DNA of 64,000 nucleotides, from NCBI RefSeq assembly GCF_005938105.1, contig NZ_VCPE01000003.1, positions 248,001-312,000 of the forward strand. The letters run 5' to 3'. A model generated the notes under the pieces. That model saw only the letters and a list, made by a program, of their open reading frames with translations, did no database searches and was not told the DNA's origin. How positions within the stretch are numbered: the first letter of the stretch is position 1; the number at the start of each line of letters is the position of its first letter. The stretch is from Brucella haematophila. GTDB lineage: Bacteria > Pseudomonadota > Alphaproteobacteria > Rhizobiales > Rhizobiaceae. The position numbers were made by a program, and so were the translations under genes. Shown here in pieces: positions 20,986 through 45,440 of the stretch.

Positions 20986-21801
20986 ATGTCCGAGCCTGAT
21001 CCTTGGGCAAGCTATATCGGCCGCGAAGTCAGTCGCGATGGCGTGCTTGATACGGCGACCATTGCCCGGTTTGATGCGACGCTGGGTCTGGATCATCCAT
21101 CGGGCAGCTTGCCGTTGGGATTTCATTGGTGCGCCGGGGTTGAGACCTATCCGACGGATACGCTTGGTACGGATGGACATCCGCCAAAGGGCGACTTTCT
21201 GCCGCCTATTCCCTTGCCGCGCCGGATGTGGGCTGGCGGAGCGCTGGAAATCAATCAATCCCTGCGCGCTGGTCAGGCATTCACCCGTCTTTCCCGTATT
21301 GCGGATGTGAAAGAGAAGTCCGGGCGCTCGGGTAGTCTGGTCTTCGTCACTGTCGAACACGAGATTTATGTCGATAGCCAACTGCACATCAGGGAACGGC
21401 AGGATATCGTCTATCGCCCCGCAGAGCAGGCGGCAGAAACTCCAGTCCTGCCACCTGCTCCAGCGCGGGAAGAAGGCGATTTTCTGCCGGATTCGCGGCT
21501 CTTGTTTCGGTATTCTGCACTGACCTTCAATAGTCATCGTATCCATTACGATCTGCCCTACGCGCAGGCCGAGGAGAACTATCCGGCATTGGTCGTGCAT
21601 GGGCCACTACAGGCAACATTGCTGGCAGCGAAAGCCGCAAATGTTCTCGGGCGTCCATTGCGTCGCTTCAGTTTCCGCGGCGTTGCGCCAGCATTCGCTA
21701 ACGTACCACTTGCGATCCGCTTTGAGCAAAAGGAAGGCGGTGCACTTGGTCTTCACACACAACAATTCGGCAAACCATGCATGCAGGCGGAAGCCGCATG
21801 A
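20986..21801 (+). CDS. Mesaconyl-C4-CoA hydratase-like protein (HTD2/MaoC-type hot-dog)
   Basis: A 271-residue protein with the signature of the FAS1-like/HTD2 dehydratase group: TDGHPPKGDFLPPIPLPRRM followed by WAGGALEI, LVFVTVEHEIY and, in the second hot-dog half, RLLFRYSALTFNSHRIHYD, where HRIHYD holds the hydratase His. Members include mesaconyl-C4-CoA hydratase of the 3-hydroxypropionate bicycle, which forms (S)-citramalyl-CoA, at about this length. The island also encodes a 2-methylfumaryl-CoA isomerase that would make its substrate, which favours this role. AGGAG precedes the ATG. First gene of an operon with etfBA and an acyl-CoA dehydrogenase. Confidence 0.75.
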   Translation: MSEPDPWASYIGREVSRDGVLDTATIARFDATLGLDHPSGSLPLGFHWCAGVETYPTDTLGTDGHPPKGDFLPPIPLPRRMWAGGALEINQSLRAGQAFTRLSRIADVKEKSGRSGSLVFVTVEHEIYVDSQLHIRERQDIVYRPAEQAAETPVLPPAPAREEGDFLPDSRLLFRYSALTFNSHRIHYDLPYAQAEENYPALVVHGPLQATLLAAKAANVLGRPLRRFSFRGVAPAFANVPLAIRFEQKEGGALGLHTQQFGKPCMQAEAA

Positions 21802-21850
21802 CATCCAGTGCAGTGGTTTCGGGTGCTGTGCCTGGGAAAGGGAATAAGCG

Positions 21851-22609
21851 ATGAAAGTTCTCGTCCCCGTCAAACGCGTGATTGATTACAACGTGAAAGT
21901 ACGGGTCAAACCAGATGGCTCCGGGGTCGATCTGGCCAATGTCAAAATGTCGATCAATCCTTTCGATGAGATCGCCGTCGAAGAGGCGATCCGGCATAAG
22001 GAAAAGGGCCAGATTGCCGAAGTTATCCTATTGTCCGTTGGGCCAGGAGCAGCGCAAGAAGTGTTGCGGGCCGGTCTTGCTATGGGTGCTGATCGTGCGA
22101 TTTTGGTGGAAGCCGATGGTGGGCGCAGCATCGAACCATTGGCTGTGGCTAAAGTGATCGCAGCAATCGCACAGCGCGAAGCCGTGGATCTGATCATTGC
22201 CGGCAAGCAAGCGATAGACGACGATCTTGGCTCGACTGCCCAAATGACCGCTGGTTTGCTGAACTGGCCACAGGCAACTTTCGCTTCGGCGGTCGAACTT
22301 CTGGACAGTGGCGTCGTGGTAACCCGCGAGGTTGATGGCGGTCTCCAAGTGTTGCGGATGGCTCTTCCTGCCGTTATCTCCGCTGATCTGCGTTTGAACC
22401 AACCGCGCTACGCGTCGCTTCCCAACATCATGAAGGCCAAGAAAAAGCCGCTGGATGTCATCAAGGCAGAAGATCTTGGCATTGATCTCAGCCCACGCCT
22501 TGAAGTGCTGCGGGTGGTTGAACCCGCCGCGCGCAAGGCCGGTATTCGCGTGAGTTCTGTGGCCGAGCTAGTCAGCAAGTTGAAAGATGAAGCAGGTGTG
22601 TTCAGATGA
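21851..22609 (+). CDS. etfB: Electron transfer flavoprotein, beta subunit
   Basis: A 252-residue EtfB. It starts [20 protein letters not shown], continues [20 protein letters not shown], and has the [20 protein letters not shown] nucleotide-binding loop and [13 protein letters not shown], all standard for the family. With EtfA it accepts electrons from acyl-CoA dehydrogenases and passes them to ETF-ubiquinone oxidoreductase. Its ATG follows GGGAATAAG, and its stop overlaps the etfA start by four bases, indicating translational coupling. An extra etf pair inside a catabolic operon suggests dedication to the acyl-CoA dehydrogenases here. No ETF-quinone oxidoreductase gene is in the window. Confidence 0.95.
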
Positions 22610-23532
22610 CAGTATTGGTTATTGCAGATGTAACCGGCAACACGCTCGGTAAAGACGCAACAGCGAAAGCGCTCAGCGGTGTGAAAGCTTTGGGCAAGGT
22701 GCATCTCCTGCTCCTGGGGCAGGGTCTGGAGCAAGCAGCCGTGGAAGCGGCGAAGCTTGACGGCGTAACCAAAGTTCTGGTGGCGGATGATGCCGCCTAT
22801 GCACGGCAGATGGCTGAGCCGGCAGTAGCACTGCTCCAAATGCTAGCTCATTCATACAGTCATATAACAGCGCCATCGACCGCATCGACAAAGAATTTGC
22901 TTCCACGTTTGGCGGCGAAGCTTGATGTCATGATGCTGACGGATGTGATGCAGATACATGACGTCGATACCTTTTCGCGACCGATATATGCGGGCAACGC
23001 CATCGAAACGGTTCGCTCGAAAGACGTGGTAAAAGTCTTTACCCTGCGCACCGCGAGTTTCCGACCAGTGGGCGAGGGAGCGTCCGCTCAGATTGAGGCG
23101 GTGAGTGCAGGCCCCGATACAGTCAGCGCTGTATGGGTTGAGGATCGTCTCGCTCACTCAGAGCGACCCGATCTGAGCGCCGCCAGGATAGTGGTTTCGG
23201 GTGGTCGTGCGTTGGGCTCGAAAGAGAATTTCGCCTTGATAGAAGGGCTGGCGGACAAGCTGAATGCCGCTGTCGGCGCCAGCCGTGCTGCGGTCGATTC
23301 CGGTTATGCGCCGAATGACTGGCAGGTCGGCCAGACCGGTAAGGTGGTTGCGCCCGAGTTGTATGTAGCTGTTGGCATTTCCGGCGCGATCCAGCATCTC
23401 GCCGGCATGAAAGACAGCAGGATTATCGTGGCGATCAATAAGGACGAAGAGGCGCCGATTTTCCAGATTGCCGATTACGGCCTGGTGGGTGACCTGTTTG
23501 CCATCTTGCCCGAACTTACACAGACATTTTGA
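22606..23532 (+). CDS. etfA: Electron transfer flavoprotein, alpha subunit
   Basis: A 308-residue EtfA. The N-terminal domain begins [14 protein letters not shown]. The C-terminal FAD domain has [35 protein letters not shown], the [19 protein letters not shown] loop and [18 protein letters not shown]. These are the conserved FAD-binding elements and the length is normal. It forms a heterodimer with EtfB in the cytoplasm. The start codon overlaps the etfB stop (ATGA). Confidence 0.95.
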
Positions 23533-23551
23533 TCCAGTCAGGAAATAAGCG

Positions 23552-24457
23552 ATGCTTGAGGGCAAAGTAGTTTTGATTACGGGCGCGGGTGGTGGCATTG
23601 GCCGCGCGCTTGCGCTTGGTGCCGCGAAAGCCGGTGCAAAAGTCGTCGTCAATGACATCGGCGCAAGCTTGCAGGGCGAGCGCGGGGATGTGGGTGTCGC
23701 GCACCGGGTGGTTGATGAGATTATCGCCGCTGGCGGCGAGGCCGTGGCTTCGACTGGTTCCGTTGCCGAGCCTGACGAGGCCGCAACCGCCGTGCGGACC
23801 GCAGTGGATCATTTTGGTCGTCTTGACGGTCTGGTGAACAATGCAGGCATCTTGCGCGACGGGTTCTTCCACAAGATGAGCTTTGCTGATTTTGATGCGG
23901 TGTTGAAGGTCAGTCTCTATGGCGCTTTCAACATGAGCCGCGCTGCTGCCGATGTTTTCCGGGCACAAAATTCGGGCTCCATTCTGCACATGACATCGAC
24001 CTCCGGTCTGATCGGCAATTTTGCGCAGGCCAATTATGCCACTGCAAAGCTCGCAATGGTGGCCTTGTCGAAATCGATTTCGCTGGATTTGGCACGCTGG
24101 AATGTGCGCTCAAATTGCATCGCGCCGTTCGCCTGGAGCCGAATGACCTCCAACATCAAGGCCGATAGCGCTGAACAGGAGGAACGCATCAATCGTTTGC
24201 GCCAGATGAAGCCCGAGAAAATCGTGCCGCTGGTCAACGCACTTCTTTCCGATCAAACCGCAGACATCACAGGCCAGATTTTCTCGGTGCGCAACAACGA
24301 ACTGTTCCTCATGAACCAGATTCGTCCGATCCGGTCCGTTCATCGCGGCGAGGGCTGGGATGAGGAGAGTTTGCTTGGCCACGGCCTGCCAGCACTTCGC
24401 AGCAGTTTTGCCAAGCCGGATGTCTCGGCTGACGTTTTTCCGTGGGACCCTGTCTAA
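23552..24457 (+). CDS. SDR oxidoreductase, multifunctional-enzyme-2-like hydroxyacyl-CoA dehydrogenase
   Basis: A 301-residue short-chain dehydrogenase. It has the nucleotide motif TGAGGGIG (residues ~10-17), NNAG near residue 97, a catalytic Ser in MTSTSG and YATAK. The segment VVNDIGASLQGERGD is typical of the (3R)-hydroxyacyl-CoA dehydrogenase unit of peroxisomal multifunctional enzyme type 2 and bacterial relatives, which supports oxidation of a hydroxyacyl-CoA. A ~50-residue tail (VHRGEGWDEESLL ...) also fits that group. It sits between etfA and the methylsuccinyl-CoA dehydrogenase-like gene in one operon, with AGGAAATAAG before its ATG. Confidence 0.85.
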   Translation: MLEGKVVLITGAGGGIGRALALGAAKAGAKVVVNDIGASLQGERGDVGVAHRVVDEIIAAGGEAVASTGSVAEPDEAATAVRTAVDHFGRLDGLVNNAGILRDGFFHKMSFADFDAVLKVSLYGAFNMSRAAADVFRAQNSGSILHMTSTSGLIGNFAQANYATAKLAMVALSKSISLDLARWNVRSNCIAPFAWSRMTSNIKADSAEQEERINRLRQMKPEKIVPLVNALLSDQTADITGQIFSVRNNELFLMNQIRPIRSVHRGEGWDEESLLGHGLPALRSSFAKPDVSADVFPWDPV

Positions 24458-24467
24458 GGAGTTTGTC

Positions 24468-26126
24468 ATGAACGATATGAGCTGGAACCGCCTGACAGGT
24501 GATCTCCTTGTTGCCCGCGCCGGAGCGGCGGTGGCGGATGTCAATGCACTAACGGTGCGCGCGCAAGACAAGCTGAAGCACGAACTGGCCGAAAACGGCA
24601 AGATTTCGAATCGGTTGCTCGATGCGCGGCAACATGCCGCCCACACGCTGGCATGGTTTGCAACCTACGCCCGCGCGCTCGAGCAGATGGCGGGCTGGGC
24701 GCGCAATCTGTCGACGGAAGGAAAATTCACTGAGATCGATAGCGCGATCCTGTCGGTGACCTTTGGTGAATATCTCAACCATATTCGCGGCGGTATTCCG
24801 ATGTGGCAGGGCGAATATGCCCGCATTGCCGATCTTGGTATCGAGTGGGAACCAGCTGATGCGACCAAAGAACTTATCGCCAGCGGTTCCACGCCGGAGA
24901 TGCGTGAAGCCCTTTACCGGCTGATCGTCGATGCGGGTCCGGTTGCCAGCTTCGGCACGACCGGACAGAGTGAAGAGCTGAACATGATGCGAGATATCTT
25001 CCGCCGTTATGCGGAAGATAAAGTTATCCCTCACGCCCATGAGTGGCATCTGAAAGACGAACTGATCCCGCATTCGGTCATTCAGGATCTGAACGAAATG
25101 GGCGTCTTTGCGATGACGATTCCGGAAGAATGGGGAGGGATGGGGCTCCCCAAGGAATCGATGGTTGTCGTATCGGAAGAACTTTCCCGCGGCTACATCG
25201 GTGTGGGTTCCCTTGGTACGCGCGCTGAAATTGCTGCCGAGCTGATCATTGGTGGTGGTACTGACGCTCAGAAAGAAAAGTGGCTGCCAAAGCTGGCGTC
25301 TGGCGAGGTGTTGCCGACAGCGGTGTTCACTGAGCCGGACACGGGTTCTGATCTTGGTAGTCTGCGCACACGGGCAGAACAGGACGCGGCGGGTGACTGG
25401 CGCGTGACCGGAAACAAGACGTGGATTACCCATGCCGCACGCGCCAACATGATGACGCTTCTCGTGCGCACTGAACCCGGTTCCAAGGATCATCGCGGCC
25501 TTTCGATGCTGCTGGCTGAAAAGCAGGCCATGACAAAAACGGAGGACTTTCCGTCTGAAAACATGACGGGCGGCGAAATTCCGGTGATCGGATATCGCGG
25601 CATGAAGGAATATGAGCTGTCCTTCGACGGTTTCCACGTCAAGGCTGAGAATCTTCTTGGTGGTGTGACTGGTCAGGGCTTCCGGCAATTGATGCAAACC
25701 TTCGAAAGCGCGCGCATTCAAACGGCGGCGCGTGCCGTGGGCGTGGCTCAGGCTGCACTGGAGCAGGGCATGCGTTACAGTCAGGAGCGCAAGCAGTTCG
25801 GTCGCCCGATCGGAGTTTTCCAGCGAGTTTCGGGAAAGATGGCGGTTGCTGCTGCTGAGATCATGGCAGCGCGTCAGATCACCTATTATTCGGCGCGCCG
25901 CAAAGATGGTGGTGAGCGCTGTGATCTGGAAGCGGGCATGGCGAAGCTGCTGGCTGCTCGCGTGGCGTGGACTACCGCCGATAGTGCACTTCAAATCCAT
26001 GGCGGCAACGGCTTTGCGCAGGAATACGTCATTTCGCGACTTTTGGCCGATGCGCGCATTCTGAACATTTTCGAAGGCGCCGGTGAAATCCAAGCGCAGG
26101 TGATTGCGCGCCGACTGCTGGAATAG
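24468..26126 (+). CDS. mcd: Acyl-CoA dehydrogenase, (2S)-methylsuccinyl-CoA dehydrogenase-like
   Basis: A 552-residue flavoprotein, ~160 residues longer than ordinary acyl-CoA dehydrogenases. The N-terminal extension includes QHAAHTLAWFATYARALEQM and FGEYLNHIRGGIPMWQGE, hallmarks of methylsuccinyl-CoA dehydrogenase (Mcd) of the ethylmalonyl-CoA pathway, whose length is also ~550. The dehydrogenase part has AVFTEPDTGSDLGSLRT, FAD loops and IFEGAGEIQ with the catalytic Glu near 536. The reaction would be methylsuccinyl-CoA to mesaconyl-C1-CoA, electrons going to the nearby ETF. The start follows AAGGAG. No ethylmalonyl-CoA mutase or crotonyl-CoA carboxylase gene is in the window, so here Mcd probably serves catabolism of an external substrate. 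Confidence 0.82.
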   Translation: MNDMSWNRLTGDLLVARAGAAVADVNALTVRAQDKLKHELAENGKISNRLLDARQHAAHTLAWFATYARALEQMAGWARNLSTEGKFTEIDSAILSVTFGEYLNHIRGGIPMWQGEYARIADLGIEWEPADATKELIASGSTPEMREALYRLIVDAGPVASFGTTGQSEELNMMRDIFRRYAEDKVIPHAHEWHLKDELIPHSVIQDLNEMGVFAMTIPEEWGGMGLPKESMVVVSEELSRGYIGVGSLGTRAEIAAELIIGGGTDAQKEKWLPKLASGEVLPTAVFTEPDTGSDLGSLRTRAEQDAAGDWRVTGNKTWITHAARANMMTLLVRTEPGSKDHRGLSMLLAEKQAMTKTEDFPSENMTGGEIPVIGYRGMKEYELSFDGFHVKAENLLGGVTGQGFRQLMQTFESARIQTAARAVGVAQAALEQGMRYSQERKQFGRPIGVFQRVSGKMAVAAAEIMAARQITYYSARRKDGGERCDLEAGMAKLLAARVAWTTADSALQIHGGNGFAQEYVISRLLADARILNIFEGAGEIQAQVIARRLLE

Positions 26127-26175
26127 CCGGGGCTTCCAACACCTTGGCAAGCATATCAATATGGGAATGAGAGCA

Positions 26176-27369
26176 ATGGCATCTCCGCTTAAAGGCTTGA
26201 GAATACTGGATACAACGGCCTATATTTCGGGGCCCTATGCTTCGGCGCTATTGGGTGCGCTGGGAGCCGAGGTGGTGAAGATCGAGCCGCCAAAGGGTGA
26301 GGCATTTCGACGGGGTATTGGCACCGGTTCCAAATATTTTCGTCAGTATAATGTTGGCAAAAGGTCGGTGGTCATCAATCTGAAAAAGCCCGAAGGTGTG
26401 GCTTTGATCAAGCAGATGGTGCCCCAATTCGATGTTTTCATGGAAAACTCGCGTCCGGGTAAAATGGAAGCGATGGGCTTGGGCCGTGAGGCGCTCCTAG
26501 CGCTGAACCCACGGCTGGTCTATTCTTCGGTCTCGGGTTTTGGTGACGGCGGTCCTTTCCGGGATCGCGCAGCATATGACTCCATAGGCCAAAGCATGTC
26601 TGGCTTTTACTCAATCATGAACGATGAGAGTAATGCCCGCCTGTCCGGAACCTGCGTGGCGGATCTCATGACAGCCGTGGTTTCGGCAATGGGAATTCTG
26701 GCTTCGCTGGTTGGGCGCGATACGGGGGCAGGTGCGGGTACACGTGTGGTGGAGACTTCGCTGCTTGAAGCCATGTCGGTGTTGACTGTGGATGCGGTTG
26801 TGCAGCATTTCGATGAGGACATTGTGCCCACGCGATCCAGCCGCCATCCGCAGGCGCAGAATTTCTGTCTTGCCACAGCTAGCGGTGGTTCGATCACATT
26901 GCATATGTCGTCGTCCGAGAAGTTCTGGCAGGCGCTGGCGCGCGCGATCGGGCGTGAAGATCTGATCTCGCGGCCCGAATTTGCGCGGTTTCCCAATAGG
27001 ATAGACAATTATATTCAGCTGAAAACCCTTATGGAAACGGAATTTCTCAAACGGTCCCGTGCTGAATGGGAAGCCATTCTGGCAGCAGCGGATGTGCCTT
27101 TCGCGCCGGTTCTGACGATAGCTGAAGCGATATACCACCCACAGACGGAGTGGTTGGATTTGCTGGAAACCCCGCGGGATGGCCAGAGCTTCGTTCGTCC
27201 GCCGTGGCGCTTTGGTGGTGCGCGTCCGCATATTCCTGGTGCCGCACCCGAGATTGGCGATGGAACAACCGAAGTCCTGCGTGAATGGCTCTCGGATGCC
27301 CAATTGCAGGACTATCTCGCGCGCGGTGTTGTCGAAAGCGCGACCGAAAAACTAGCAGAACCTGTTTGA
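26176..27369 (+). CDS. CaiB/BaiF family CoA-transferase
   Basis: A 397-residue class III CoA-transferase: ASPLKGLRILDTTAYISGPY at the start, GAEVVKIEPP, the ENSRPGKMEAMGL loop and Asp163 in GTCVADLMTAV, equivalent to the aspartyl-CoA nucleophile of formyl-CoA transferase (Asp169). It would activate a carboxylic acid by moving CoA from succinyl-CoA or another thioester; the substrate cannot be read from sequence. Two further in-frame ATGs lie up to 15 bases upstream; the one used gives the family N-terminus. It follows the Mcd-like gene by 49 bp and may activate the acid that Mcd oxidises. Confidence 0.88.
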   Translation: MASPLKGLRILDTTAYISGPYASALLGALGAEVVKIEPPKGEAFRRGIGTGSKYFRQYNVGKRSVVINLKKPEGVALIKQMVPQFDVFMENSRPGKMEAMGLGREALLALNPRLVYSSVSGFGDGGPFRDRAAYDSIGQSMSGFYSIMNDESNARLSGTCVADLMTAVVSAMGILASLVGRDTGAGAGTRVVETSLLEAMSVLTVDAVVQHFDEDIVPTRSSRHPQAQNFCLATASGGSITLHMSSSEKFWQALARAIGREDLISRPEFARFPNRIDNYIQLKTLMETEFLKRSRAEWEAILAAADVPFAPVLTIAEAIYHPQTEWLDLLETPRDGQSFVRPPWRFGGARPHIPGAAPEIGDGTTEVLREWLSDAQLQDYLARGVVESATEKLAEPV

Positions 27370-27386: not shown

Positions 27387-28169
27387 ATGTCTGTAATTGA
27401 AGAACTATTCGGTGTGCGCGACAAAAGCGTGGTCATCACCGGTGGCAGCCGCGGCATCGGTGAGGCGATTGCCGAGATTTTTGTAAAGGCTGGCGCGCGT
27501 GTTTATATCTGCGCCCGTCGGGCGGAAGAGGTGAACGCGACCGCTGCACGCCTGTCGGAATTCGGTCATTGCAAAGGCCTTTCGGCAGATCTGTCTGCGG
27601 AAGCAGGGCGCAAGGCATTTATCGCTGATCTGTCGCAACATGAGAGCAGTCTGGATGTGCTGATCAACAATGCTGGCACCATCTGGGCGGCCCCTTTGGC
27701 CGAATATCCCGAAAGTGGATGGGACAAGGTCTTTGATCTCAATGTGAAAGGGCTTTTCTTCTTCATTCGTGACCTTGTGCCGATGCTGGCGAAGGCCGGT
27801 CGTCATGGCGCTCCAGCGCGGGTGATCAATGTTGGCTCTATTGATGCTTTTCATGTGCCCAAGCACGAAACCTATGCCTATTCATCATCGAAAGCGGCGG
27901 TGCACCATCTGTCGGCCCATCTGGCTGCACAGCTTGCGCCGCAGCATATCACCGTCAATGTCATTGCTCCCGGCTTGTTTCCGTCGAAAATGCTGGCCAA
28001 CTCACTAGAGACAAAGGGCGAAGAGGTGCTGATCGAACCGGTTCCGCTGAAGCGCCTGACGGGACCGAATGATATGGCGGGCGCCGCGATCTATCTGGCC
28101 TCCGCTGCTTCGGCCTATGTCACGGCTGCTATGATCCCCGTCGATGGCGGACTGGCAACCACACTTTAG
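27387..28169 (+). CDS. SDR family oxidoreductase
   Basis: A 260-residue classical short-chain dehydrogenase: TGGSRGIG at residues ~18-25, CARR after strand 2 (suggesting NADPH), NNAG, a catalytic Ser in NVGSIDAF, YSSSK and a C-terminal PVDGGLATTL. The substrate is unknown; RhlG-like 3-oxoacyl reductases share this layout. It starts 17 bp after the CoA-transferase gene in the same operon and precedes the racemase gene, so it probably acts on a hydroxy- or oxo-acyl intermediate. Confidence 0.85.
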   Translation: MSVIEELFGVRDKSVVITGGSRGIGEAIAEIFVKAGARVYICARRAEEVNATAARLSEFGHCKGLSADLSAEAGRKAFIADLSQHESSLDVLINNAGTIWAAPLAEYPESGWDKVFDLNVKGLFFFIRDLVPMLAKAGRHGAPARVINVGSIDAFHVPKHETYAYSSSKAAVHHLSAHLAAQLAPQHITVNVIAPGLFPSKMLANSLETKGEEVLIEPVPLKRLTGPNDMAGAAIYLASAASAYVTAAMIPVDGGLATTL

Positions 28170-28238
28170 AATGGGTTCCTCAGCGCAGGCTATGTGTTGG
28201 AGAACAGACATCTCACGGACTTCATGAGAGGAACGACT

Positions 28239-29437: not shown

Positions 29438-29653
29438 CACAAAACAGAAGGGTCTATGTTAGCCCCCACATTGCCTAAACATCGTTGCGGGACCGGCAGA
29501 AGTGATCGTATCGTCAAGCCACGGCCGCTTTTGATCCGGTCGATAGTCTTATCGCACGGCCTGCATATCTCGCCTTCCGTCGCAACTGGACGACTGAGCG
29601 AGGGATGAAACGTGTGCCGATCCATCAATAATTCTGCTGGAGGAGAACAGCCC

Positions 29654-31192: not shown

Positions 31193-31227
31193 CACACTCT
31201 CCTCGGTAAGTGGCCGCGTCACTGCAC

Positions 31228-33871: not shown

Positions 33872-33903
33872 AACATACCTTGGATGAGGTTGGATGGTCG
33901 TAT

Positions 33904-33923
33904 GGGGGCCTTGTGTGGCCCCC
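33904..33923. other. Intergenic hairpin between thiolase and acyl-CoA dehydrogenase genes
   Basis: GGGGGCC-ttgtgt-GGCCCCC, a perfect 7-bp GC stem without a T run. It may reduce downstream expression or protect mRNA 3' ends in the operon. Confidence 0.5.
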
Positions 33924-33936
33924 ACAATTGATGAGG

Positions 33937-38362: not shown

Positions 38363-39133
38363 GTGGGACGATATAGTGGTGTCATCGCTCTGGTAACCGG
38401 AGGCGCGAGCGGTATTGGAAAGTCAACGGTTGAGCGCTTGATAGTCGAGGGCGCGAGCGTTGTGGTTGCTGATCTTTATCCCGCGAAAAGCGAAGGTGTG
38501 CTGCGCGAAATCGCAGCCAAAGGTGTGGATATAAGAGATTCCTTTGCCCTTGGTCTGGACGTGACGGATGGTCAGGCCGTGGAGGCCGCATTTGCCAATG
38601 TGAAGGCGCGTTTCGGCAGCATTGGCCTGCTGGTGAATTCAGCAGGTATTCGCGAAATCATTGCTCCACTCGATTTGCCGATCTCGGAGTGGAACCGCGT
38701 GCTGGATATCAATCTGACGGGATCATTCATGATGGCGCAGGCCTTCGGACGTCAGATTGTTGCGGCGGGTACATCCGGAGCGATTGTTAATATTGCCTCC
38801 ACTGCCGGGCTTGTCGCCAGCCGCAACCGTGCAGCTTATGTGGCGTCAAAGCACGGTGTGGTGGGCCTTACCAAACAGCTCGCCTATGATCTTGGGCCGA
38901 AGGGTATTCGCGTCAACGCAGTTGCACCTGCGGTGATCCGTACGCCCATGACAGAATCCTATTTCGACGATCCGCAGCGGATCGCGGAGGTGTTGAAAAA
39001 CTATCCACTAGGCCGTGTGGGGCGGCCCGAAGATGTTGCTTCGGCAGTGGCATTTCTGGGGTCTCACGATGCAGCCTTCATCAGCGGCGTCGTGCTGCCC
39101 GTCGACGGGGGGAATACAGCCGGAAAGCCTTGA
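38363..39133 (+). CDS. SDR family oxidoreductase
   Basis: A 256-residue classical SDR: TGGASGIG, ADLYPAKSEG after strand 2 (Asp favours NAD), NSAGIRE in place of NNAG, a catalytic Ser in NIASTAG, YVASK and PVDGGNTAGKP at the end. It begins with GTG, eight bases after GGAGGGG; no better ATG is nearby. It is transcribed alone, convergent with the LysR gene only eight bases away, and divergent from the CitE-ligase operon. The substrate is unknown; a hydroxyacyl dehydrogenase of the island is likely. Confidence 0.88.
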   Translation: MGRYSGVIALVTGGASGIGKSTVERLIVEGASVVVADLYPAKSEGVLREIAAKGVDIRDSFALGLDVTDGQAVEAAFANVKARFGSIGLLVNSAGIREIIAPLDLPISEWNRVLDINLTGSFMMAQAFGRQIVAAGTSGAIVNIASTAGLVASRNRAAYVASKHGVVGLTKQLAYDLGPKGIRVNAVAPAVIRTPMTESYFDDPQRIAEVLKNYPLGRVGRPEDVASAVAFLGSHDAAFISGVVLPVDGGNTAGKP

Positions 39134-39141
39134 GGCGACCT

Positions 39142-40140
39142 TCAGGCTGTCTCACTGTTTTCACGCGCGGGGTGTAATCTCGCAGAAAGCTTGTAGCGCT
39201 GGATCATCTCTTCGGTGATGCTGATAATCATGTTTTGAACCCAGAACGCCGCGCGTGACATGGGGCGAGAACGCTTGCGCACAAGATAAGCCGTGCGCTC
39301 CATCTTGACGCCTTCAATCGGGACGAGCGCTAGCGTTCCGGCGTTGACATGATGCATGACAGCGGCCTCGGAGAGAATTGTATAGGCGCTGGCACGACAG
39401 GCCATTTCAATGAGCGAAGGCAAAGGATCGATCTCCATCACCACGTTCAGCGAGGTGTTGAACGAGCGCGCATATTTTTCCGCCACGGTGCGTCCGCCAT
39501 GCGAATTGTTGGGCATCACGAGGGGCAGCTTTTCAAGTACGTCGACTGGCACGGGCTGAAGAGCCACGCCATTCGAACCGATTTCTCCCGGCCAATTGTC
39601 GGGGGCCGTGCATAGAAACAACTCTTCAGTATAAAGTGGTTGGGTCACGAATTGAGACGGATCCGGCGTTTCATAGACACAACCGATATGGACATCTTCC
39701 CGGTCGATTTTTTCCAGAATGATCCGTGACATCGCTTCGGTCAAATGCATCCTGATCGACGGCATTTCAGTTTGAACCGTTTCTGCCAGCGGCACCGACA
39801 GCACGAGCCCTACGGAAGGGGGCAACGCCACAGTCACCTGACCAGTTGTCGAGGTGCCAATGCTTTGCACGCCTTCGACCATGCTTTCCGACATTTGTAG
39901 AATCTGCTTGCCGCGTGCTGTCAGTGCGACACCGGCTTCGGTCAGTTCCACGCCACGCGCGCCGCGTATCGCAAGCTTGACGCCAAGACTGCGTTCGAGT
40001 TTTGCAATATTTTCCGAAAGCGAGGGTTGCGCCATGCCGAGTGAGTCAGCCGCAGCAGAAATGGATCCATGATCGGCAAGGGTCAGAAAATAATAGAGTT
40101 GGCGCAGGTTCAACGCCGGTGGCTTTTCCTGTGTGGACAT
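39142..40140 (-). CDS. LysR-family transcriptional regulator 1
   Basis: A 332-residue LTTR. The N-terminal winged helix-turn-helix reads LRQLYYFLTLADHGSISAAA, then MAQPSLSENIAKLERSLGVK. The effector domain includes IGCVYETPDPSQF and RASAYTILSE. It is closely related to the second LysR protein encoded near 53 kb: both share NWPGEIG, the RASAYTIL segment and VRKRSRP near the C-terminus, as in the NAC-like branch. It lies beside the Mct-citE operon, and an operator-like site (ATAGG-N5-CCTTT) lies 60 bp before its start, fitting autoregulation. It probably senses a CoA pathway acid. Confidence 0.92.
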   Translation of the reverse strand: MSTQEKPPALNLRQLYYFLTLADHGSISAAADSLGMAQPSLSENIAKLERSLGVKLAIRGARGVELTEAGVALTARGKQILQMSESMVEGVQSIGTSTTGQVTVALPPSVGLVLSVPLAETVQTEMPSIRMHLTEAMSRIILEKIDREDVHIGCVYETPDPSQFVTQPLYTEELFLCTAPDNWPGEIGSNGVALQPVPVDVLEKLPLVMPNNSHGGRTVAEKYARSFNTSLNVVMEIDPLPSLIEMACRASAYTILSEAAVMHHVNAGTLALVPIEGVKMERTAYLVRKRSRPMSRAAFWVQNMIISITEEMIQRYKLSARLHPARENSETA

Positions 40141-40200
40141 GACTTTCTCCTCTTACCCGGAGGATGTCGCCATTCCCGGGTAAAGGCAAAAGCAATATAT

Positions 40201-40215
40201 ATAGGGAGGCCCTTT
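40201..40215 (+). promoter_or_regulatory. Putative LysR operator upstream of LysR 1
   Basis: ATAGG-gaggc-CCTTT, one mismatch from consensus. Its reverse complement extended outward (GGTAAAGGGCC ... CCTAT) also occurs before the CoA-transferase gene at 44256. It is placed for autoregulation of lysR 1. Confidence 0.5.
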
Positions 40216-40275
40216 ACCCCTCAATTGCCATAGCTATAGATGGCTCGTATTCGCGAACCATCGTCCTGTGGCGCG

Positions 40276-41493
40276 TCAGACACCTATCACGCCCTGATCA
40301 ACAAGTTTGCTGATTTCGCCCGAAGGTAAACCCAGATGATCGGCAAGAACTGCCTCGCTGTCCTGACCCAGCCGTCTTGCGGGTTGAACCTGTCCCCGTT
40401 CACGCTTCGAGATGCGGGCAAAAGCGCCCGGTACAGGCACAGAACCTGCCGCAAGCTGCGCGACTGTCGAGAAAATTTCGTTGTCACGCACAAGTCTCGG
40501 ATCGTTTGCTATTGCCTCCGCGAGCGATTGATAGGGTTCCCAGCAAACGCCGCTCGCTTCCAGCCGAGCTGTCAGATCGACGAAATCAAGCTTCGCGGTC
40601 GCCTTTTCCAACAGTGCGAAGAGTGCTTCACGATAGCGGTAGCGCTGGCCTTCATCACGCGTAAATGAAACACCGAGAACTGCTTCCAGATCGCCGATTT
40701 CCTTGGCTATGTCGAAGGCCTGTACCAGAGATTTCCATTGTCGGGCTGTGATAGCGACGATCATGACGCGACGTCCGTCTCGTGTGGCAAAATCTCGACC
40801 GAATGCGCCGAACAAGGCGTTGCCGATACGCGGGCGGTCTCCTGCCATCAGAGTTTCGGATATCTGTCCGAGATGCCCAAGCGCGCCAATCGCGACATCG
40901 CTCAGTGCAAGATTGATCTCGATATCGCGTCCGTCGACGCGCCGCTGTCTTTCGGCGGCCATCAGGCTAAAGGCAGCATAGGCGCCGGTCAGTAGATCCC
41001 ACGCCGGAAGCACGGCATTGACAGGCTGCGCGCCATTCTGGCTGTCATCGCCGGTCATCATCGGAACGCCGACCGCAGCATTGATCGTGTAATCGACGCC
41101 GTTGCGACCATCAGGCCAACCTTGCACGCGAAGTGTCACCAGATCGGAGCGGCGCTCACGCAGTTTTGCATGGGCGAGAAAGCCGTCTCGGGGATAGTTG
41201 GTGACGAAAAGGCCGCGGCCGGGCCCGGGCGCTGTGATGATGGCTGCTGCAAGTTCACGGCCCTCGGGGCGGGAAAGGTCGAGGGCAACGGAGAGCTTTC
41301 CCTTGTTCAGCCCTTCCCAGTAGAGGCTGTCGCCCGCATCGTTGAGCGGCCAACGCCGATAATCCGGCCCGCCGCCAATATTGTCGAAGCGGATTACTTT
41401 CGCGCCAAATTGCTGGAGATGCAACGCACAGGATGGGGCCGCGATAAATGAAGCGCCTTCAACGACGGTCAAATCGCTCAAAAGATCATACAT
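40276..41493 (-). CDS. mct: 2-methylfumaryl-CoA isomerase (mesaconyl-CoA C1-C4 CoA transferase)
   Basis: A 405-residue CaiB-family protein that follows Chloroflexus Mct through its length: LTVVEGASFIAAPSCALHL, GAKVIRFDNIGGGPDYRRWP, LYWEGLNKGKLSVALDL, VDYTINAAVGVPMMTG, LPAWDLLTGAYAAFSLMAAE and IGNALFGAFGRDFATRDGR. Asp166 in PAWDLL is the CoA-carrying residue. Mct moves CoA within mesaconate from C1 to C4, in the 3-hydroxypropionate bicycle. The start is set at MYDLLSDLTVVEG; the frame is open 51 codons upstream into the next gene but that part is not family-like. It sits directly after a CitE-type lyase gene, which would cleave the citramalyl-CoA formed two steps later. Confidence 0.88.
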   Translation of the reverse strand: MYDLLSDLTVVEGASFIAAPSCALHLQQFGAKVIRFDNIGGGPDYRRWPLNDAGDSLYWEGLNKGKLSVALDLSRPEGRELAAAIITAPGPGRGLFVTNYPRDGFLAHAKLRERRSDLVTLRVQGWPDGRNGVDYTINAAVGVPMMTGDDSQNGAQPVNAVLPAWDLLTGAYAAFSLMAAERQRRVDGRDIEINLALSDVAIGALGHLGQISETLMAGDRPRIGNALFGAFGRDFATRDGRRVMIVAITARQWKSLVQAFDIAKEIGDLEAVLGVSFTRDEGQRYRYREALFALLEKATAKLDFVDLTARLEASGVCWEPYQSLAEAIANDPRLVRDNEIFSTVAQLAAGSVPVPGAFARISKRERGQVQPARRLGQDSEAVLADHLGLPSGEISKLVDQGVIGV

Positions 41494-41557
41494 GGTATTT
41501 CCGTTTCCGGCAGCGAAGTTTGCCGATGAGTCGAGATATCCGAGCCGGAATTCCGGA

Positions 41558-42352
41558 TCAGAGGCATATGTTGTGAGCAAGAATTGCGCGGGCGCGAATA
41601 CGGACGGGTTCGTCGACCATCGCTCCGTCGACTTTGACGGCGCCATCGCCGGATGCGAGCACTTTGGTCGCCCATTCAGTTTCGGCAGCAGTTGGCCGCC
41701 ATGCCTCGTGAACGGGAGCGACTTGCGCAGGGTGGATCAGAAGTTTACCGCCCATGCCCAAAGCCCGCGCATGCCGCGCATCGGCGCGTGTAATTTCCGG
41801 GCTTTTCACATCCGCTGTCACACCGTCGAGCGGGGCAGCAATCTGGGCGAGACGGGATGCGATCACCAGTTCCTGACGGATAGGCAGCAGAATCTCACGT
41901 TCATGCTCGCAGCCAAGATCAGCGCAGAAATCGATGGAACCAAAAGCGAGTTGCATGACTGCGTCCGACCTCGCCAAATCGCGCGCTGCGGCTATGCCCT
42001 TCGCGCTCTCGACAAGAGCAATCACCGGATGGCCCGTCATGTCCGCAACGCGGCTGATATCATCGGCTTTTTCGGACTTTGGCAGCATCACGGCTGCGAA
42101 GGGTAAGGATGCTGCGAGACGCAAGTCGTCGTCATGGAATTCCGTATCGCTGGCATTGATGCGCAAAACCACTGGCAAATCAGTGAAACTGACATTGGCT
42201 GCTGCTCGCGCTGCGGTCTTGCAATCCGCCGCGACTGCATCTTCCAGATCGAGGATAATGGAATCCGTACCCGATGCAGCCGCTTTTGCGAAACGTTCAG
42301 GGCGATTGGCGGGGACAAATATCGGAAACTGCAATGGTGCTGGCTTGGTCAT
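41558..42352 (-). CDS. CitE-like lyase, probable citramalyl-CoA lyase
   Basis: A 264-residue HpcH/HpaI-family protein: FPIFVPANRPERFAKAAASG, the metal loop IILDLEDAVAADCKTAAR, VVLRINASDTEFHDDDL, IALVESAKGI and GGKLLIHPAQVAPVH. It is shorter than malyl-CoA lyases and closer to stand-alone CitE/citramalyl-CoA lyases, which give acetyl-CoA plus pyruvate. It shares an operon with mct (64 bp apart), and that pairing is the main argument for citramalyl-CoA as substrate. The ATG MTKPAP is preferred; an in-frame TTG lies 15 bases upstream. Confidence 0.82.
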   Translation of the reverse strand: MTKPAPLQFPIFVPANRPERFAKAAASGTDSIILDLEDAVAADCKTAARAAANVSFTDLPVVLRINASDTEFHDDDLRLAASLPFAAVMLPKSEKADDISRVADMTGHPVIALVESAKGIAAARDLARSDAVMQLAFGSIDFCADLGCEHEREILLPIRQELVIASRLAQIAAPLDGVTADVKSPEITRADARHARALGMGGKLLIHPAQVAPVHEAWRPTAAETEWATKVLASGDGAVKVDGAMVDEPVRIRARAILAHNICL

Positions 42353-42507
42353 GGCTTTCTCGTTCAACTCTTCAAAAAGCTAACGGAACGAAAGATCAGC
42401 GCCAAACAGGTGAAACCTTCTTCTATCATCGGAAAAACCGAGATGTCGGGGGGGCAGTAAGCGAAAGCGATCAGGTACTGGTCGCCGTTCAAAAAGCGAT
42501 GTGGCCT

Positions 42508-42522
42508 ATCGGCTAAGCCTAT
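42508..42522 (+). promoter_or_regulatory. Putative LysR operator, ATCGG-N5-CCTAT
   Basis: ATCGG-ctaag-CCTAT, identical in its spacer to the perfect site at 53758. It lies between the divergent citE-mct operon and the MmgE/PrpD gene and can serve both. Confidence 0.6.
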
Positions 42523-42641
42523 TGTGAGGCTATAGTCATTGACCTGCAAAAATCAGACATTTATTCCCGACATCGAATTAGAAGTCCGTTCGGTTGCGGA
42601 GGAGACGTGCGCCGGACGGCATCACGTTTGTGGGGAGTAAT

Positions 42642-44030
42642 ATGACCGATCATTCTCAAACACTGGAAGAGGCCGTCGCGGCCTTTGTCGTCAACTTTAC
42701 CCATGCGGATATTGATGCACGGACGCTTGAGGCCGCAAAGGCCCTGATCAAAGACCAGTTTGCGATTCAGATCGGCGCTTCAGTGCTGCCATGGTCGCAA
42801 AAGACACTGGCATTTCGCGCACCGCACCCAGGCCGGGCAACGATTGTCAATCGTGCGGAACCTGCTTCGGCAGTTGACGCGGCTTACATGAACGCCACTT
42901 ATGGCCATGGTTTTGAGTATGATGATTTCTTCGGGAACGCTCATCCTGGTTGTGCGGTTGTTCCAGCAGCCTTTGCTCTTGGCGAAGAGCTGGGCGCTTC
43001 GCTTGAAGAGGTGCTGACTGCCCTGGTAGTTGGCTATGAAACCTATGTCCGTATAGGCAAATGGGGATCGCCCGCAGTTCTCAATGTTGGCTGGCAGCCC
43101 CATGCAATTTTCGCCAATTTCGGCACCGCCGCACTTGCAGCCAAGTTGATGAAACTCGACGTCGAACAGACCTTTCACGCGCTTGCCATTGCACTGAGCC
43201 ATGCCAGTGGTCCAACGGAATATGCGTCGACTGGAGGGTCCATCAAGCGCGTTCACGCTGGCATTGCCGTTCGCAACGGCATTGAGGCCGCTGGCCTTGC
43301 CGCTGCAGGTGTCACCGGCCCACGACGATTCCTGACTGGTGATCGTGGTCTTTATCGCATGTTCTGTCACAAAACGGTTGGCGATGAGGCGATTGCCGAT
43401 TTTCTGCCCGGCGTTGCGAATTTCATGCCGGGTTTGTCTTTCAAGCATTACTGCTGCTGTGCCTGCACCTTCTCCTATATCGAGGCCATGCAGGAATTGC
43501 AGGGACGGGCGCAGGATATCGAACGGGTGGAAGCGCGCGTTCAGACGATGGTCAACAATATCGTTGGCACTCGAAACGCAAATATCTATCAGCCTCGTAA
43601 TATCGAAGAGGTGCAATATTCGTTGCCTGCGCAAATGGCGATGTCGGCACTTGGTATCGGCAACGGGTTTTCTGCTCATCATGCTGTGCTTGAAGGAAAG
43701 ATCGATCTGAAAGATGGTTCGCCCGTCTATGATCTGATCAACCGTATCAAGATCGAAATTTCGCCCGAGCTTGATGAGAAATACCGCCACTTCGTCGCTG
43801 ATGTGACCGTACACTTAAAAGACGGAACCACCGAGACGATTTTCCGCGAGCAGTCCAAAGGCTCGCCTATGAAGCCCTATACTGCCGCTGAACATCTGGA
43901 AAAGTTGAGCGATCTGACTGATGGCGTGATGGGGCGCGAGCAGGCAGCGCGCCTGTGGGCGCTGGTGGATGAAATGCGCTTTGATCGCAAGGCGAGCGAG
44001 ATTGCATCGCTTCTCGTTCCCGGACGCTAA
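42642..44030 (+). CDS. MmgE/PrpD family protein
   Basis: A 462-residue member of the 2-methylcitrate dehydratase / cis-aconitate decarboxylase / epimerase superfamily: VVGYETYVRIGKWG, WQPHAIFANFGTAALAAKLM, the active-site segment GGSIKRVHAGIAVRNG and GVTGPRRFLTGDRGLYRMF. Members dehydrate, decarboxylate or epimerise tri- and dicarboxylic acids without a metal. In this setting it may interconvert a methyl-branched hydroxy acid with its unsaturated form, such as citramalate and mesaconate, or make itaconate. The specific reaction cannot be read. The ATG MTDHSQ follows GGGGAG. It is divergent from citE-mct across a LysR-type site. Confidence 0.85.
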   Translation: MTDHSQTLEEAVAAFVVNFTHADIDARTLEAAKALIKDQFAIQIGASVLPWSQKTLAFRAPHPGRATIVNRAEPASAVDAAYMNATYGHGFEYDDFFGNAHPGCAVVPAAFALGEELGASLEEVLTALVVGYETYVRIGKWGSPAVLNVGWQPHAIFANFGTAALAAKLMKLDVEQTFHALAIALSHASGPTEYASTGGSIKRVHAGIAVRNGIEAAGLAAAGVTGPRRFLTGDRGLYRMFCHKTVGDEAIADFLPGVANFMPGLSFKHYCCCACTFSYIEAMQELQGRAQDIERVEARVQTMVNNIVGTRNANIYQPRNIEEVQYSLPAQMAMSALGIGNGFSAHHAVLEGKIDLKDGSPVYDLINRIKIEISPELDEKYRHFVADVTVHLKDGTTETIFREQSKGSPMKPYTAAEHLEKLSDLTDGVMGREQAARLWALVDEMRFDRKASEIASLLVPGR

Positions 44031-44141
44031 TGTTTCGCTGAGTATCTCAGCACAGGAACTGCAATAAATTTCAGAACATGGCTGAGCGGGCAACTCATGG
44101 AGTTGTCCGTATAGCCGCTCGCGTCATGGAGGTGGGTAGGC

Positions 44142-44160
44142 GGTAAAGGGCCCTACCTAT
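44142..44160 (+). promoter_or_regulatory. Degenerate LysR-type site
   Basis: GGTAAAGGGCCCTACCTAT. Its first 11 bases and last five match the reverse complement of the site before lysR 1 (40201-40218), with one extra spacer base. It lies ~95 bp before the CoA-transferase gene. Confidence 0.45.
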
Positions 44161-44255
44161 AGCGCGCATAGTTCCTGACTTTGGCTCAGCCGCGCCAGTG
44201 GATCGTTACCCAAGCGAACCATAAACTCTTACAAAATTGCCTTTGGAGAACACAT

Positions 44256-45440
44256 ATGACTGCAATATTGGAGGGAATTCGCGTTCTCGATTTTGGACGC
44301 TGGATCGCTGGTCCCTACAGCGCTCATCTTCTGGCCGATCTAGGTGCGGATGTTGTTCGAATAGAGCGCCCCAAAGGTGAGGACGACCGGTTTCTCATGC
44401 CGGTCACGGCCCATGGCGAAGGCGCGCAATATATGCAGTGCAACGGAGGCAAGCGTTCTCTGGCGCTGGATATGAATTCGCCAGCGGGACGCGAGGTGAT
44501 GCGTCGTATGATCGAAAAGGCGGATGTTGTCGTCGCCAATTATTCTCCCAATGGGCTCAAGCATTTCGGTCTTGATTACGAAACCCTGCAGGCAATCAAG
44601 CCGGACATTATCCTGGCATCGGCGTCAGCCTATGGCACCGAGGGACCGATGGCCGAACGGATAGGCTTTGACGGTGTCGGGCAGGCGGTAAGCGGTGCGA
44701 TCTATCTCACCGGGGAGCCCGGAAAGCCCTATCGCGCAGCGACAGCGCCAATCGATTTCGCGACCTCGTTGTCACTGGCTTATGGAACGCTTGCGGCGAT
44801 CATCGGCAAGATGCGCACCGGCAAGGGAGCACATGTGCAGGCCTCGCTTGTCGGGACCTCGCTCAACCTGACCAACCAGATTTTGATGGAAGAGGCGAGC
44901 GGATTCACCCATCGCGAACCCACCGGAAACCGCAGTCCTATGTCGGGTCCATCCGATGTCTTTCGGGCCAAGGATGGCTGGTTCATCATGCAGGTCATCG
45001 GTCAGAAGGTTTTCCAGCGCTGGTGCAAAGTTGTCGGTCGTGAAGATCTGATCGGAGAGCCACGTTTCGCCACCGACCAGTTACGTGGTGAAAACGGCGC
45101 TGAACTGAGCGCAATTATGCAAGCATGGTGCGAAGCCCGTCTGCGCGATGATTGTATCGACATACTTGGCAAGGCGAATATTGGATGCGGCCCGGTCTTG
45201 GCACCTGTCGAAGTGGTTGCTGGAACACTGGATCTGCGCAATACCTTCATGCGCGAGGTGGAGTTTCCGAACTCTCAACCGGTTCCTATTGCGTCACCGC
45301 CAGCGCGCCTTTCGCATGGCACTGTGGATATGGCCCGTCCGCCAGTGCTGGGCGAACATAGTGATGCGGTGCTGGTCGATTATGGTTTCACTGCCACGGA
45401 CATAGCCGCATTGCGCGGTGTTGGCGTAGTGACCGGGTGA
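44256..45440 (+). CDS. CaiB/BaiF family CoA-transferase
   Basis: A 394-residue class III CoA-transferase: IRVLDFGRWIAGPYSAHLLA, GADVVRIERPKGED, ANYSPNGLKHFGLDYETL and Asp167 in ATAPIDFATSL (nucleophile position). Lacks the His and Asp of the racemase subgroup. It most resembles succinyl-CoA-dependent transferases acting on dicarboxylic acids, but the substrate is not readable. TTTGGAGAA precedes the ATG; an in-frame upstream start is rejected. It follows the MmgE/PrpD gene and a LysR-like site, so it may activate mesaconate, itaconate or methylsuccinate. Confidence 0.88.
   Translation: MTAILEGIRVLDFGRWIAGPYSAHLLADLGADVVRIERPKGEDDRFLMPVTAHGEGAQYMQCNGGKRSLALDMNSPAGREVMRRMIEKADVVVANYSPNGLKHFGLDYETLQAIKPDIILASASAYGTEGPMAERIGFDGVGQAVSGAIYLTGEPGKPYRAATAPIDFATSLSLAYGTLAAIIGKMRTGKGAHVQASLVGTSLNLTNQILMEEASGFTHREPTGNRSPMSGPSDVFRAKDGWFIMQVIGQKVFQRWCKVVGREDLIGEPRFATDQLRGENGAELSAIMQAWCEARLRDDCIDILGKANIGCGPVLAPVEVVAGTLDLRNTFMREVEFPNSQPVPIASPPARLSHGTVDMARPPVLGEHSDAVLVDYGFTATDIAALRGVGVVTG

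Follow-up and report, generated by a model that had tools for sequence, protein, structure and literature searches.

The window studied here, a stretch of 64,000 nucleotides (contig positions 248,001-312,000) from the 5.5 Mb, 55-contig genome of Brucella haematophila, holds an island of catabolic genes that begins at position 20986. The lower half of this island quite probably takes (2S)-methylsuccinyl-C1-CoA to pyruvate and acetyl-CoA with four enzymes: a long-form methylsuccinyl-CoA dehydrogenase (Mcd), an intramolecular CoA-transferase related to 2-methylfumaryl-CoA isomerase (Mct), a hydratase and a lyase. Mcd would oxidize its substrate to mesaconyl-C1-CoA, with electrons going to the co-encoded electron-transfer flavoprotein (ETF); the Mct-like enzyme would shift the CoA from C1 to C4 within one molecule, via an aspartyl-linked intermediate; a Meh/Ich-like hydratase would add water, giving (S)-citramalyl-CoA; and a RipC/Ccl-like lyase would split this product into acetyl-CoA and pyruvate. 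An earlier note, made from the letters of the window alone, had named these four enzyme types, and the matches in the PDB bear it out: 6es9 with 739 bits, 8apq with 357, 8khg with 186 and 9nzb with 172. What is observed is gene presence, residue conservation and linkage and, at the thresholds applied, a genome with neither crotonyl-CoA carboxylase/reductase (Ccr) nor a full-length mesaconyl-C1-CoA hydratase (Mch); all the substrates and the direction of flow we infer.

The upper half of the island (ligase or CoA-transferases, acyl-CoA dehydrogenase, hydratase, short-chain dehydrogenase/reductase or SDR, and thiolase) most likely serves to shorten a dicarboxylyl-CoA with a methyl branch. By our own chemical reasoning, thiolysis of 4-methyl-3-oxoadipyl-CoA would release acetyl-CoA and exactly the C1 ester required by Mcd; that the entry compound is 3-methyladipate-like is a guess. 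Looking beyond this genome, we lean somewhat towards a general reading: a widespread, often plasmid-borne and previously undescribed Mcd-Mct-Meh-Ccl module of alpha- and betaproteobacteria would degrade the C1-CoA ester of methylsuccinate formed from 3-methyladipate-like dicarboxylates, with an Mct clade of its own whose CoA channel is remodelled (L43P, R314G) and, in most relatives, an Mcd group of its own (Tyr243Trp). The route would bring known types of enzyme together in a new way, without new chemistry, and it appears common.

The dehydrogenase and the CoA-transferase

The gene mcd (24360..26126, plus strand, likely start at 24465) encodes the single long Mcd of the genome, the next match being at 37%. 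A phmmer comparison with 6es9 gives 739 bits over residues 46-588, and the runner-up, 8ciw, which is likewise named methylsuccinyl-CoA dehydrogenase, gives 298. The N-terminal extension of about 170 residues that is a trait of Mcd is present: in the protein of 588 residues the Pfam match to the core begins at 204, and the alignment with 6es9 runs from residue 46 to the end. Entry 6es9 is presumably the structure of Paracoccus Mcd, judging by the agreement of its residue numbers with those in PMC5798300 (here and below, published statements come from excerpts of the papers cited by PMC number). In the Paracoccus enzyme, three arginines bind the carboxylate, Ala285 and Phe287 form the pocket for the C2-methyl group, and Glu535 is catalytic (PMC5798300). 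The window copy has them all, R252, R376, R421, A285, F287 and E535, and it also keeps S248, W318, T320, Y375, E380 and T418. Together, Mcd and Mct share 45-63% identity with solved structures.

Thirteen positions (243, 248, 252, 285, 287, 318, 320, 375, 376, 380, 418, 421 and 535) were compared among relatives. The window copy is identical at all of them to each of 20 Mcds encoded next to Ccr, hand-chosen from 85 genomes with both genes, and the set is intact in none of 14 outgroup dehydrogenases. Among 47 Mcds linked to an Mct, 45 have an identical set once position 243 is left aside: 44 of these have Trp for Tyr at 243 as their sole change, and one (L047) is identical throughout. Tyr243 makes one of the contacts by which the loop bearing Arg376 is held (PMC5798300). 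Trp243 is found throughout the Mct-linked members of two tree groups, one of 35 Mcds and the other of 9, and the window copy and L047 keep Tyr. These comparisons suggest that the Mcd of the island acts on (2S)-methylsuccinyl-C1-CoA, as a C1-type enzyme. The two remaining Mct-linked Mcds, from Variovorax SRS16 and from locus L009, are without A285 and F287. Both are long Mcd relatives found beside or near an Mct (the first at 8316-11215 of locus L098, on plasmid 3), both have Ile at 285 and at 287, and they possibly act on another substrate.

The open frame of the mct-like gene (40276..41646, minus strand) opens at 41646, but homology to the solved Mct starts about 50 residues in, and an ATG at 41493 is the likely start. 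This start lies 64 bp past the end of the lyase gene citE2, on the same strand, which makes a common operon plausible, as the earlier note had proposed. The top matches in the PDB are 8apq, entitled '2-methylfumaryl-CoA isomerase', with 357 bits, and 7xkg with 354; the next one has 76 bits. Sequence identity with 8apq is 45%, and with two of the class III transferases encoded in the island about 24%. In Mct, Asp165 is the nucleophile, and Arg47 and Tyr136 bind mesaconate (PMC9196870, PMC9813914). Residues R47, N100, D135, Y136 and D165 occur without exception: in the window copy, in all of 80 genome loci (the best 80 from a scan that reported 176 stretches encoding Mct relatives) and in five of five plasmid copies. 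The three other transferases of the island all have D165, one of them has R47, and none has Y136.

The same protein obtains 378.9 bits from the curated model TIGR04253, whose equivalog cut-off is 725. As it misses this cut-off, we file it in an Mct-like sister clade and not under the model; by this measure the isomerase is not the clear one that the earlier note had called it. A FastTree phylogeny places the window copy, the 80 loci and three of the five plasmid copies apart from two Mcts of the 3-hydroxypropionate bicycle (supports 0.98 and 0.94); the plasmid Mcts of Variovorax and Azospirillum group on the bicycle side, and that of Variovorax SRS16 is 57% identical to 8apq. The closest sister of the window copy is on plasmid 2 of Pseudorhizobium flavum (support 0.993). 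The island isomerase thus belongs to a diverged sister clade of Mct in which several CoA-channel residues have changed; its active site suggests that it works like Mct, although it fails the curated model.

The pairing of mct and mcd in other genomes

The earlier note had judged the arrangement unusual. It is instead widespread, and not peculiar to this genome: in 44 of the 80 Mct loci an Mcd lies on the strand of mct within 8 kb, within about 1 kb in 35 of them and within 220 bp in 26, gaps being measured between tblastn matches. Such same-strand linkage is not a matter of chance. Neighbours were compared in the 47 Mct loci that have at least 9 kb on both sides, 28 with Mcd and 19 without. 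A relative of the island's thiolase, at 50% or more, is found in 19 of the 28 and 3 of the 19 (p=0.0008), and a relative of its hydratase in 18 and 3 (p=0.0012), p-values that are optimistic because many loci come from related sphingomonads. For citE2, ech and acad2 the two kinds of full-flank loci do not differ significantly.

The contig of the betaproteobacterium Caballeronia hypogeia is the strongest evidence that the island may form one functional unit: it has 19 of the 23 genes compared from window 20986-46838, at 38-73% identity, on a single contig of 34 kb. Three genes, sdr301, abh and lysR1, were not found there, and sdr256 is ambiguous. The chromosome of Mesorhizobium Root554 has genes for a hydratase, a CoA-transferase, a PrpD protein, a TRAP transporter, Mct, Mcd, an aldehyde dehydrogenase and a lyase.

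Plasmids carry the pairing as well. A tblastn search with Mct returned 24 plasmid records, of which five were inspected; a sixth, from Sphingomonas paeninsulae, was reached through its Mcd. Plasmid pSHV1 of Sphingobium herbicidovorans has the bare operon mct-mcd-MaoC_N-CitE, then a GMC oxidoreductase and an MFS gene, with the pyruvate carboxylase gene pyc about 5 kb beyond; at a distance of about 40-55 kb it also has thiolases and ligases, besides two MaoC genes and a CitE gene. On plasmid pA of Ancylobacter polymorphus ZM13, mct-mcd, a thiolase and a set of hydratase, lyase, etfBA and ETF quinone oxidoreductase (ETF-QO) lie within about 33 kb, and between mct-mcd and the lyase set are a ligase, an SDR, hydratases, a 3-hydroxyacyl-CoA dehydrogenase, a thiolase and an MmgE/PrpD gene. 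Plasmid 2 of Pseudorhizobium flavum has mct, an ABC importer, hydratase-lyase-etfBA-ETF-QO, an MFS gene and pyc, with no long Mcd seen in the 29 kb read. The presence of pyc near the module on two plasmids would fit pyruvate as a product. The Sphingomonas paeninsulae plasmid has thiolase, dehydrogenase, mct, mcd and hydratase in a row, with no lyase in the 17.6 kb read; on that of Azospirillum brasilense, mcd and mct are about 2 kb apart, with no hydratase or lyase in the 17 kb read; and that of Variovorax SRS16 joins the diverged Mcd to an Mct of the bicycle branch. Against the sequenced plasmids, the whole island as a query matched pieces of at most 1% of its length, mostly ETF genes, among the 20 of 48 records listed.

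Some loci show parts of the arrangement. Seven Caulobacteraceae loci (L016, L018, L028, L029, L043, L055 and L060) have mct beside a MaoC relative, with a weak CitE relative (36-38%) and no mcd; in L018 a gene of the alkyl-sulfatase type follows the MaoC gene. On plasmid pNL2 of Novosphingobium aromaticivorans (L124, 8406-10849), mcd adjoins a MaoC_N hydratase gene, and no mct is found 8 kb before or 10 kb after.

We now turn to a survey of 289 genomes drawn evenly from the class, our own included, with fixed match thresholds. It finds mct in 38 genomes and long mcd in 116; Ccr is found in 88, of which 87 exceed the cut-off of the family. Among the 201 genomes without Ccr, 19 have both mct and mcd, 9 mct only, 12 mcd only and 161 neither, an association with a Fisher p of 2.7e-12 (1.2e-11 without our own genome), although such p-values overstate it, the genomes being related and not independent. 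The twelve genomes with a long Mcd and, at the thresholds used, neither Ccr nor Mct include G033, G064 and G136. Our own genome has no Ccr match over the cut-off, so the ethylmalonyl-CoA pathway was rejected as its source of methylsuccinyl-CoA.

Several independent origins of the Mct-Mcd pairing were first suggested by FastTree. A more careful Mcd tree needs four label changes, of which the starred branches force at least two. We do not claim independent origins, because approximately unbiased (AU) tests reject neither of two single-clade arrangements: a union of the groups of 35 and 9 in one clade (p 0.58, the constrained tree being the better) and the window Mcd joining the group of 35 (p 0.25). 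The two Trp243 groups may thus form one clade. The window Mcd groups with that of P. denitrificans, with support 99/97, and this placement and its Tyr243 suggest, not firmly, that it comes from another lineage than the Mcd of Caballeronia.

The island itself was probably acquired by Brucella haematophila, since mct has no match at E<=1e-60 in 11 other genomes of the genus (two of them less than 90% complete) and 8 others of the order, and long mcd has none at E<=1e-130 in the same 11; at this last threshold, long mcd is found in 4 of the 8. A transposase gene of the IS240 type (PF13610) lies upstream of the island, at 16851-17696, and the G+C content of the island is unremarkable.

Hydratases, lyases and competing readings

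The hydratase gene of the proposed route, meh1 (20986..21801, plus strand, PF13452), encodes a mesaconyl-C4-CoA or itaconyl-CoA hydratase-like protein that matches 8khg, 'Itaconyl-CoA hydratase', with 186 bits over residues 6-243 of 271. Its relatives adjoin mct-mcd in several loci. The presumed (S)-citramalyl-CoA lyase is the CitE-type product of citE2 (41558..42367, minus strand). Its best PDB matches are the acyl-CoA lyases 9nzb (172 bits) and 8khl (171), which we take to be citramalyl-CoA lyases of the pseudomonad type. Its best NCBIfam model is NF038242 (RipC_Ccl), at 153.8 bits, below the equivalog cut-off of 375.

The island has a second hydratase and lyase pair, on which the earlier note was silent. 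The gene maoC (29612..30145, plus strand) encodes a single-domain MaoC hydratase that is nearest to mesaconyl-CoA hydratase, with 97 bits to 8hgn, a beta-methylmalyl-CoA dehydratase. It is a half-size protein, and its match to PF19315 is partial: 46.5 bits, over positions 20-175 of the 353 of the profile. The gene citE1 (37131..38033, minus strand) encodes a second CitE-type lyase, closer to malyl- and beta-methylmalyl-CoA lyases (102 bits to 5ugr, 73 to 8khl). The pair may act in a beta-methylmalyl-CoA branch or upstream; in Caballeronia its relatives are adjacent, ahead of the ligase. No full-length Mch was found in the genome: the island maoC is its only match to PF19315 over the cut-off, with one further match below the cut-off elsewhere. 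The C4 branch is thus left as the open one. The order of steps in the earlier note (Mcd, Mct, mesaconyl-C4-CoA hydratase, citramalyl-CoA lyase) gains support from the conserved residues and from the linkage in alpha- and betaproteobacteria, and again from co-occurrence in genomes lacking Ccr and from the missing Mch.

Several observations weigh against the route, among them the relatedness of the survey genomes already mentioned and the missed TIGR04253 cut-off. In genomes with Ccr, the association of mct and mcd vanishes (both in 9 of the 88, mct only in 1, mcd only in 76, neither in 2; p=0.31), and 10 of the 38 Mct-bearing genomes of the class are without Mcd. Where Paracoccus Mcd has Ser283 the window copy has Pro, but so do all 20 Ccr-adjacent Mcds. 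In the window Mct, residues L43, R75, R104 and R314 are replaced by P, S, D and G, with the milder changes I74L and F101Y; according to PMC9813914, every intramolecular enzyme known has Leu or Ile at position 43, where it narrows the channel. The lyase is the least conserved and the softest link in other genomes. Among 16 Mct genomes, namely our own and 15 hand-chosen from the 80 loci, a RipC-like lyase at 44% or more is found in 7 (our own included) and a weaker one in 3, and the other 6 have no match at E<=1e-25; a citE2-like gene lies near mct in only 5 of the 44 loci with Mcd. Finally, the presence of maoC and citE1 in the same island points elsewhere, as do two MaoC genes and a CitE gene that pSHV1 has about 55 kb from its mct operon.

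The genes maoC and citE1 would suit the lower half of the ethylmalonyl-CoA pathway, with maoC hydrating mesaconyl-C1-CoA to beta-methylmalyl-CoA, citE1 cleaving it to glyoxylate and propionyl-CoA, and the Mct-like enzyme as a side valve. Both have their nearest relatives there, and two Caballeronia genomes retain them side by side, upstream of mct-mcd. Yet the same Caballeronia contigs carry the meh1-citE2 pair too; maoC is half-size, in a genome where no full-length mesaconyl-CoA hydratase was found, and has no tblastn match in the stretches read on three plasmids around mct or the hydratase-lyase pair (L096, L097/L123 and L100). Moreover, Mct would be superfluous in such a pathway, and it is the conserved neighbour of Mcd. 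We thus regard this explanation as unlikely.

The changed channel invites another: the Mct-like enzyme might serve some other dicarboxylyl-CoA, such as methylsuccinyl-CoA itself or a larger branched intermediate, in a module that is related but not a mesaconyl route. Position 43 is Pro in 73 of the 80 loci and position 314 is Gly in 72; 36 of the 80 have no Mcd in reach, some of them being cut by contig ends; and ThnP, from a different family, carries out intramolecular CoA transfer on the CoA esters of 2-(carboxymethyl)cyclohexane-1-carboxylate (PMC11659651). However, R47 and Y136, which hold mesaconate, are invariant along with the nucleophile D165, mct adjoins an Mcd with an intact methylsuccinyl pocket in most loci with Mcd, and a Meh relative is found in all 16 genomes tested, which leaves this explanation quite unlikely. 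Very improbable, in our view, is that the island is the known methylsuccinate and itaconate pathway of pseudomonads and Cupriavidus (Ict, Msi, (RS)-methylsuccinyl-C4-CoA dehydrogenase, Ich, Ccl) plus some further genes. The two have in common enzymes of the Ich and Ccl kinds, class III CoA-transferases and a protein of the PrpD family, but the dehydrogenase of that pathway, as PMC12290011 describes it, is C4-specific and the pathway is without Mct, whereas the dehydrogenase in the gene row of the island's hydratase is of the long C1 type. Clusters that look like the known type (hydratase, short dehydrogenase, CoA-transferase, lyase) do occur in Variovorax dw_308 and S. subterraneum; the 20 kb read there show neither mct nor mcd, and the mct-mcd pair of these genomes lies elsewhere (L137, L139). 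The route through Mcd, Mct, Meh and Ccl remains the one that we prefer.

The rest of the island and known systems

The other genes of the island fall into two opposed series. On the plus strand, meh1 is followed by etfB (21851..22609, PF01012) and etfA (22606..23532, PF00766 and PF01012), for the beta and alpha subunits of ETF; by a PRK07791-like SDR, the presumed 3-hydroxyacyl-CoA dehydrogenase of the upstream beta-oxidation (23552..24457; NF005861 at 254 bits, cut-off 373); by mcd; by frc1, a class III CoA-transferase (26104..27369; PF02515 at 295 bits, best PDB match 4hl6, YfdE, at 174 bits); by sdr260 (27387..28169, PF13561), with a 65% relative in both Caballeronia loci; by frc2, another class III CoA-transferase (28194..29393; PF02515 at 270 bits); and by maoC, to 30145. 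On the minus strand, from 38033 down to 30299, citE1 is followed by an acetyl-CoA-synthetase-like acyl-CoA ligase (35121..37064; NF001208 at 547 bits, under the cut-off of 657), then by acad2, a short acyl-CoA dehydrogenase (33937..35106, PF00441), a thiolase, the presumed source of methylsuccinyl-CoA (32657..33925; NF004853 at 681 bits, over the cut-off of 551), and an enoyl-CoA hydratase (31831..32637; NF005595 at 390 bits, over the cut-off of 292), the first and last of these three being assigned to the upstream beta-oxidation. A SnoaL-like protein (31228..31761, PF13577), with a 38% relative in C. hypogeia, and the alpha/beta-hydrolase abh (30299..31222, PF12697) end the series.

Beyond it come sdr256 (38363..39133, plus strand, PF13561), a gene for a LysR-type regulator (39142..40140, minus strand, PF00126 and PF03466), then citE2 and mct on the minus strand, and on the plus strand prpD, of the MmgE/PrpD family (42594..44030, PF03972; best PDB match IDS-epimerase, 89 bits), frc3, a class III CoA-transferase (44181..45440, PF02515 at 361 bits), sdr251 (46083..46838, PF13561) and an ABC importer with binding protein, permease and ATPase (46946..50944; PF13416, PF00528, PF00005). 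The dedicated ETF (21851-23532) and CoA-transferases (at 26104, 28194 and 44181) announced in the earlier note are thus in place, and the importer lies outside the span that it covered. Its proximity suggests a tie to the route, and its binding protein has no NCBIfam match at E<=1e-20.

A 60% relative of prpD lies upstream of the C. hypogeia island, where a 56% relative of sdr251 adjoins it. The idea that prpD is a methylsuccinate isomerase found no support: around its best plasmid match (50%), in Sphingobium EP60837, the 19 kb read contain neither mct nor mcd. That locus (L121, 7336-12272, plasmid pEP1) has relatives of sdr251 (53%), prpD (50%) and lysR2 (64%) together, and the three genes may have entered the island as a unit of their own. 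Elsewhere in the window, a ShlB/FhaC-type transporter (2664-4418) and, downstream of it, an open frame of 3162 residues (5064-14552) are a probable two-partner secretion pair. Downstream of the island, at 54104-58832, genes for a 3-hydroxyisobutyrate-dehydrogenase-like protein, a SnoaL-like protein, a zinc alcohol dehydrogenase and an aldehyde dehydrogenase are possibly a further catabolic unit.

If the proposed route is real, a module of many soil and water bacteria joins methyl-branched dicarboxylates to pyruvate, with the thioester retained. It would also account for the Mcd kept in some genomes that lack Ccr (19 of 31 in the survey), and annotation would go astray if it read the bicycle from the presence of Mct, or the ethylmalonyl-CoA pathway from that of Mcd. 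We found no description of Mcd and Mct as a catabolic route in the open-access literature searched, a scope that leaves aside subscription papers and preprints, and no relevant title on terpenoid or steroid links among the literature matches listed. The earlier note had the enzymes as known separately; a related route for methylsuccinate, through C4-CoA esters, is established (PMC12290011, PMC9875883).

That route is the nearest of the known systems. In the methylsuccinate and itaconate cluster of Cupriavidus necator and Pseudomonas aeruginosa, Ich and Ccl are related to the enzymes of the island, and a PrpD-family protein and a CoA-transferase are nearby, as here (PMC12290011, PMC9875883). 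However, its C4-specific dehydrogenase makes mesaconyl-C4-CoA directly, where the island has a long C1-type Mcd and Mct, and for C. necator the C1 ester of methylsuccinyl-CoA is described as a dead end (PMC12290011); unlike that cluster, the island includes a beta-oxidation set. The ethylmalonyl-CoA pathway has an Mcd with the same active site as that of the island, but neither its Ccr nor a full-length Mch was found in this genome, and it ends in glyoxylate and propionyl-CoA, whereas the presumed products of the island are pyruvate and acetyl-CoA.

The second cycle of the 3-hydroxypropionate bicycle shares with the island the sequence of steps from Mct through mesaconyl-C4-CoA hydratase to the cleavage of citramalyl-CoA (PMC6593406). 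The bicycle is described in Chloroflexus and Roseiflexus and, in part, in Accumulibacter, Kentron and others, and the genes of the partial bicycle, mct included, as uncommon and disjunct (PMC6593406). Its mesaconyl-C1-CoA comes from glyoxylate and propionyl-CoA, and that of the island presumably from the oxidation of methylsuccinyl-CoA; likewise, the island Mct differs from that of the bicycle as a member of a sister clade, 45% identical and with changed CoA-channel residues. As for the upper half, the 4-methylmuconolactone (mml) pathway of Cupriavidus is reported to end in a thiolysis that yields methylsuccinyl-CoA and acetyl-CoA, and is thus one natural source of methylsuccinyl-CoA (PMC6449761).

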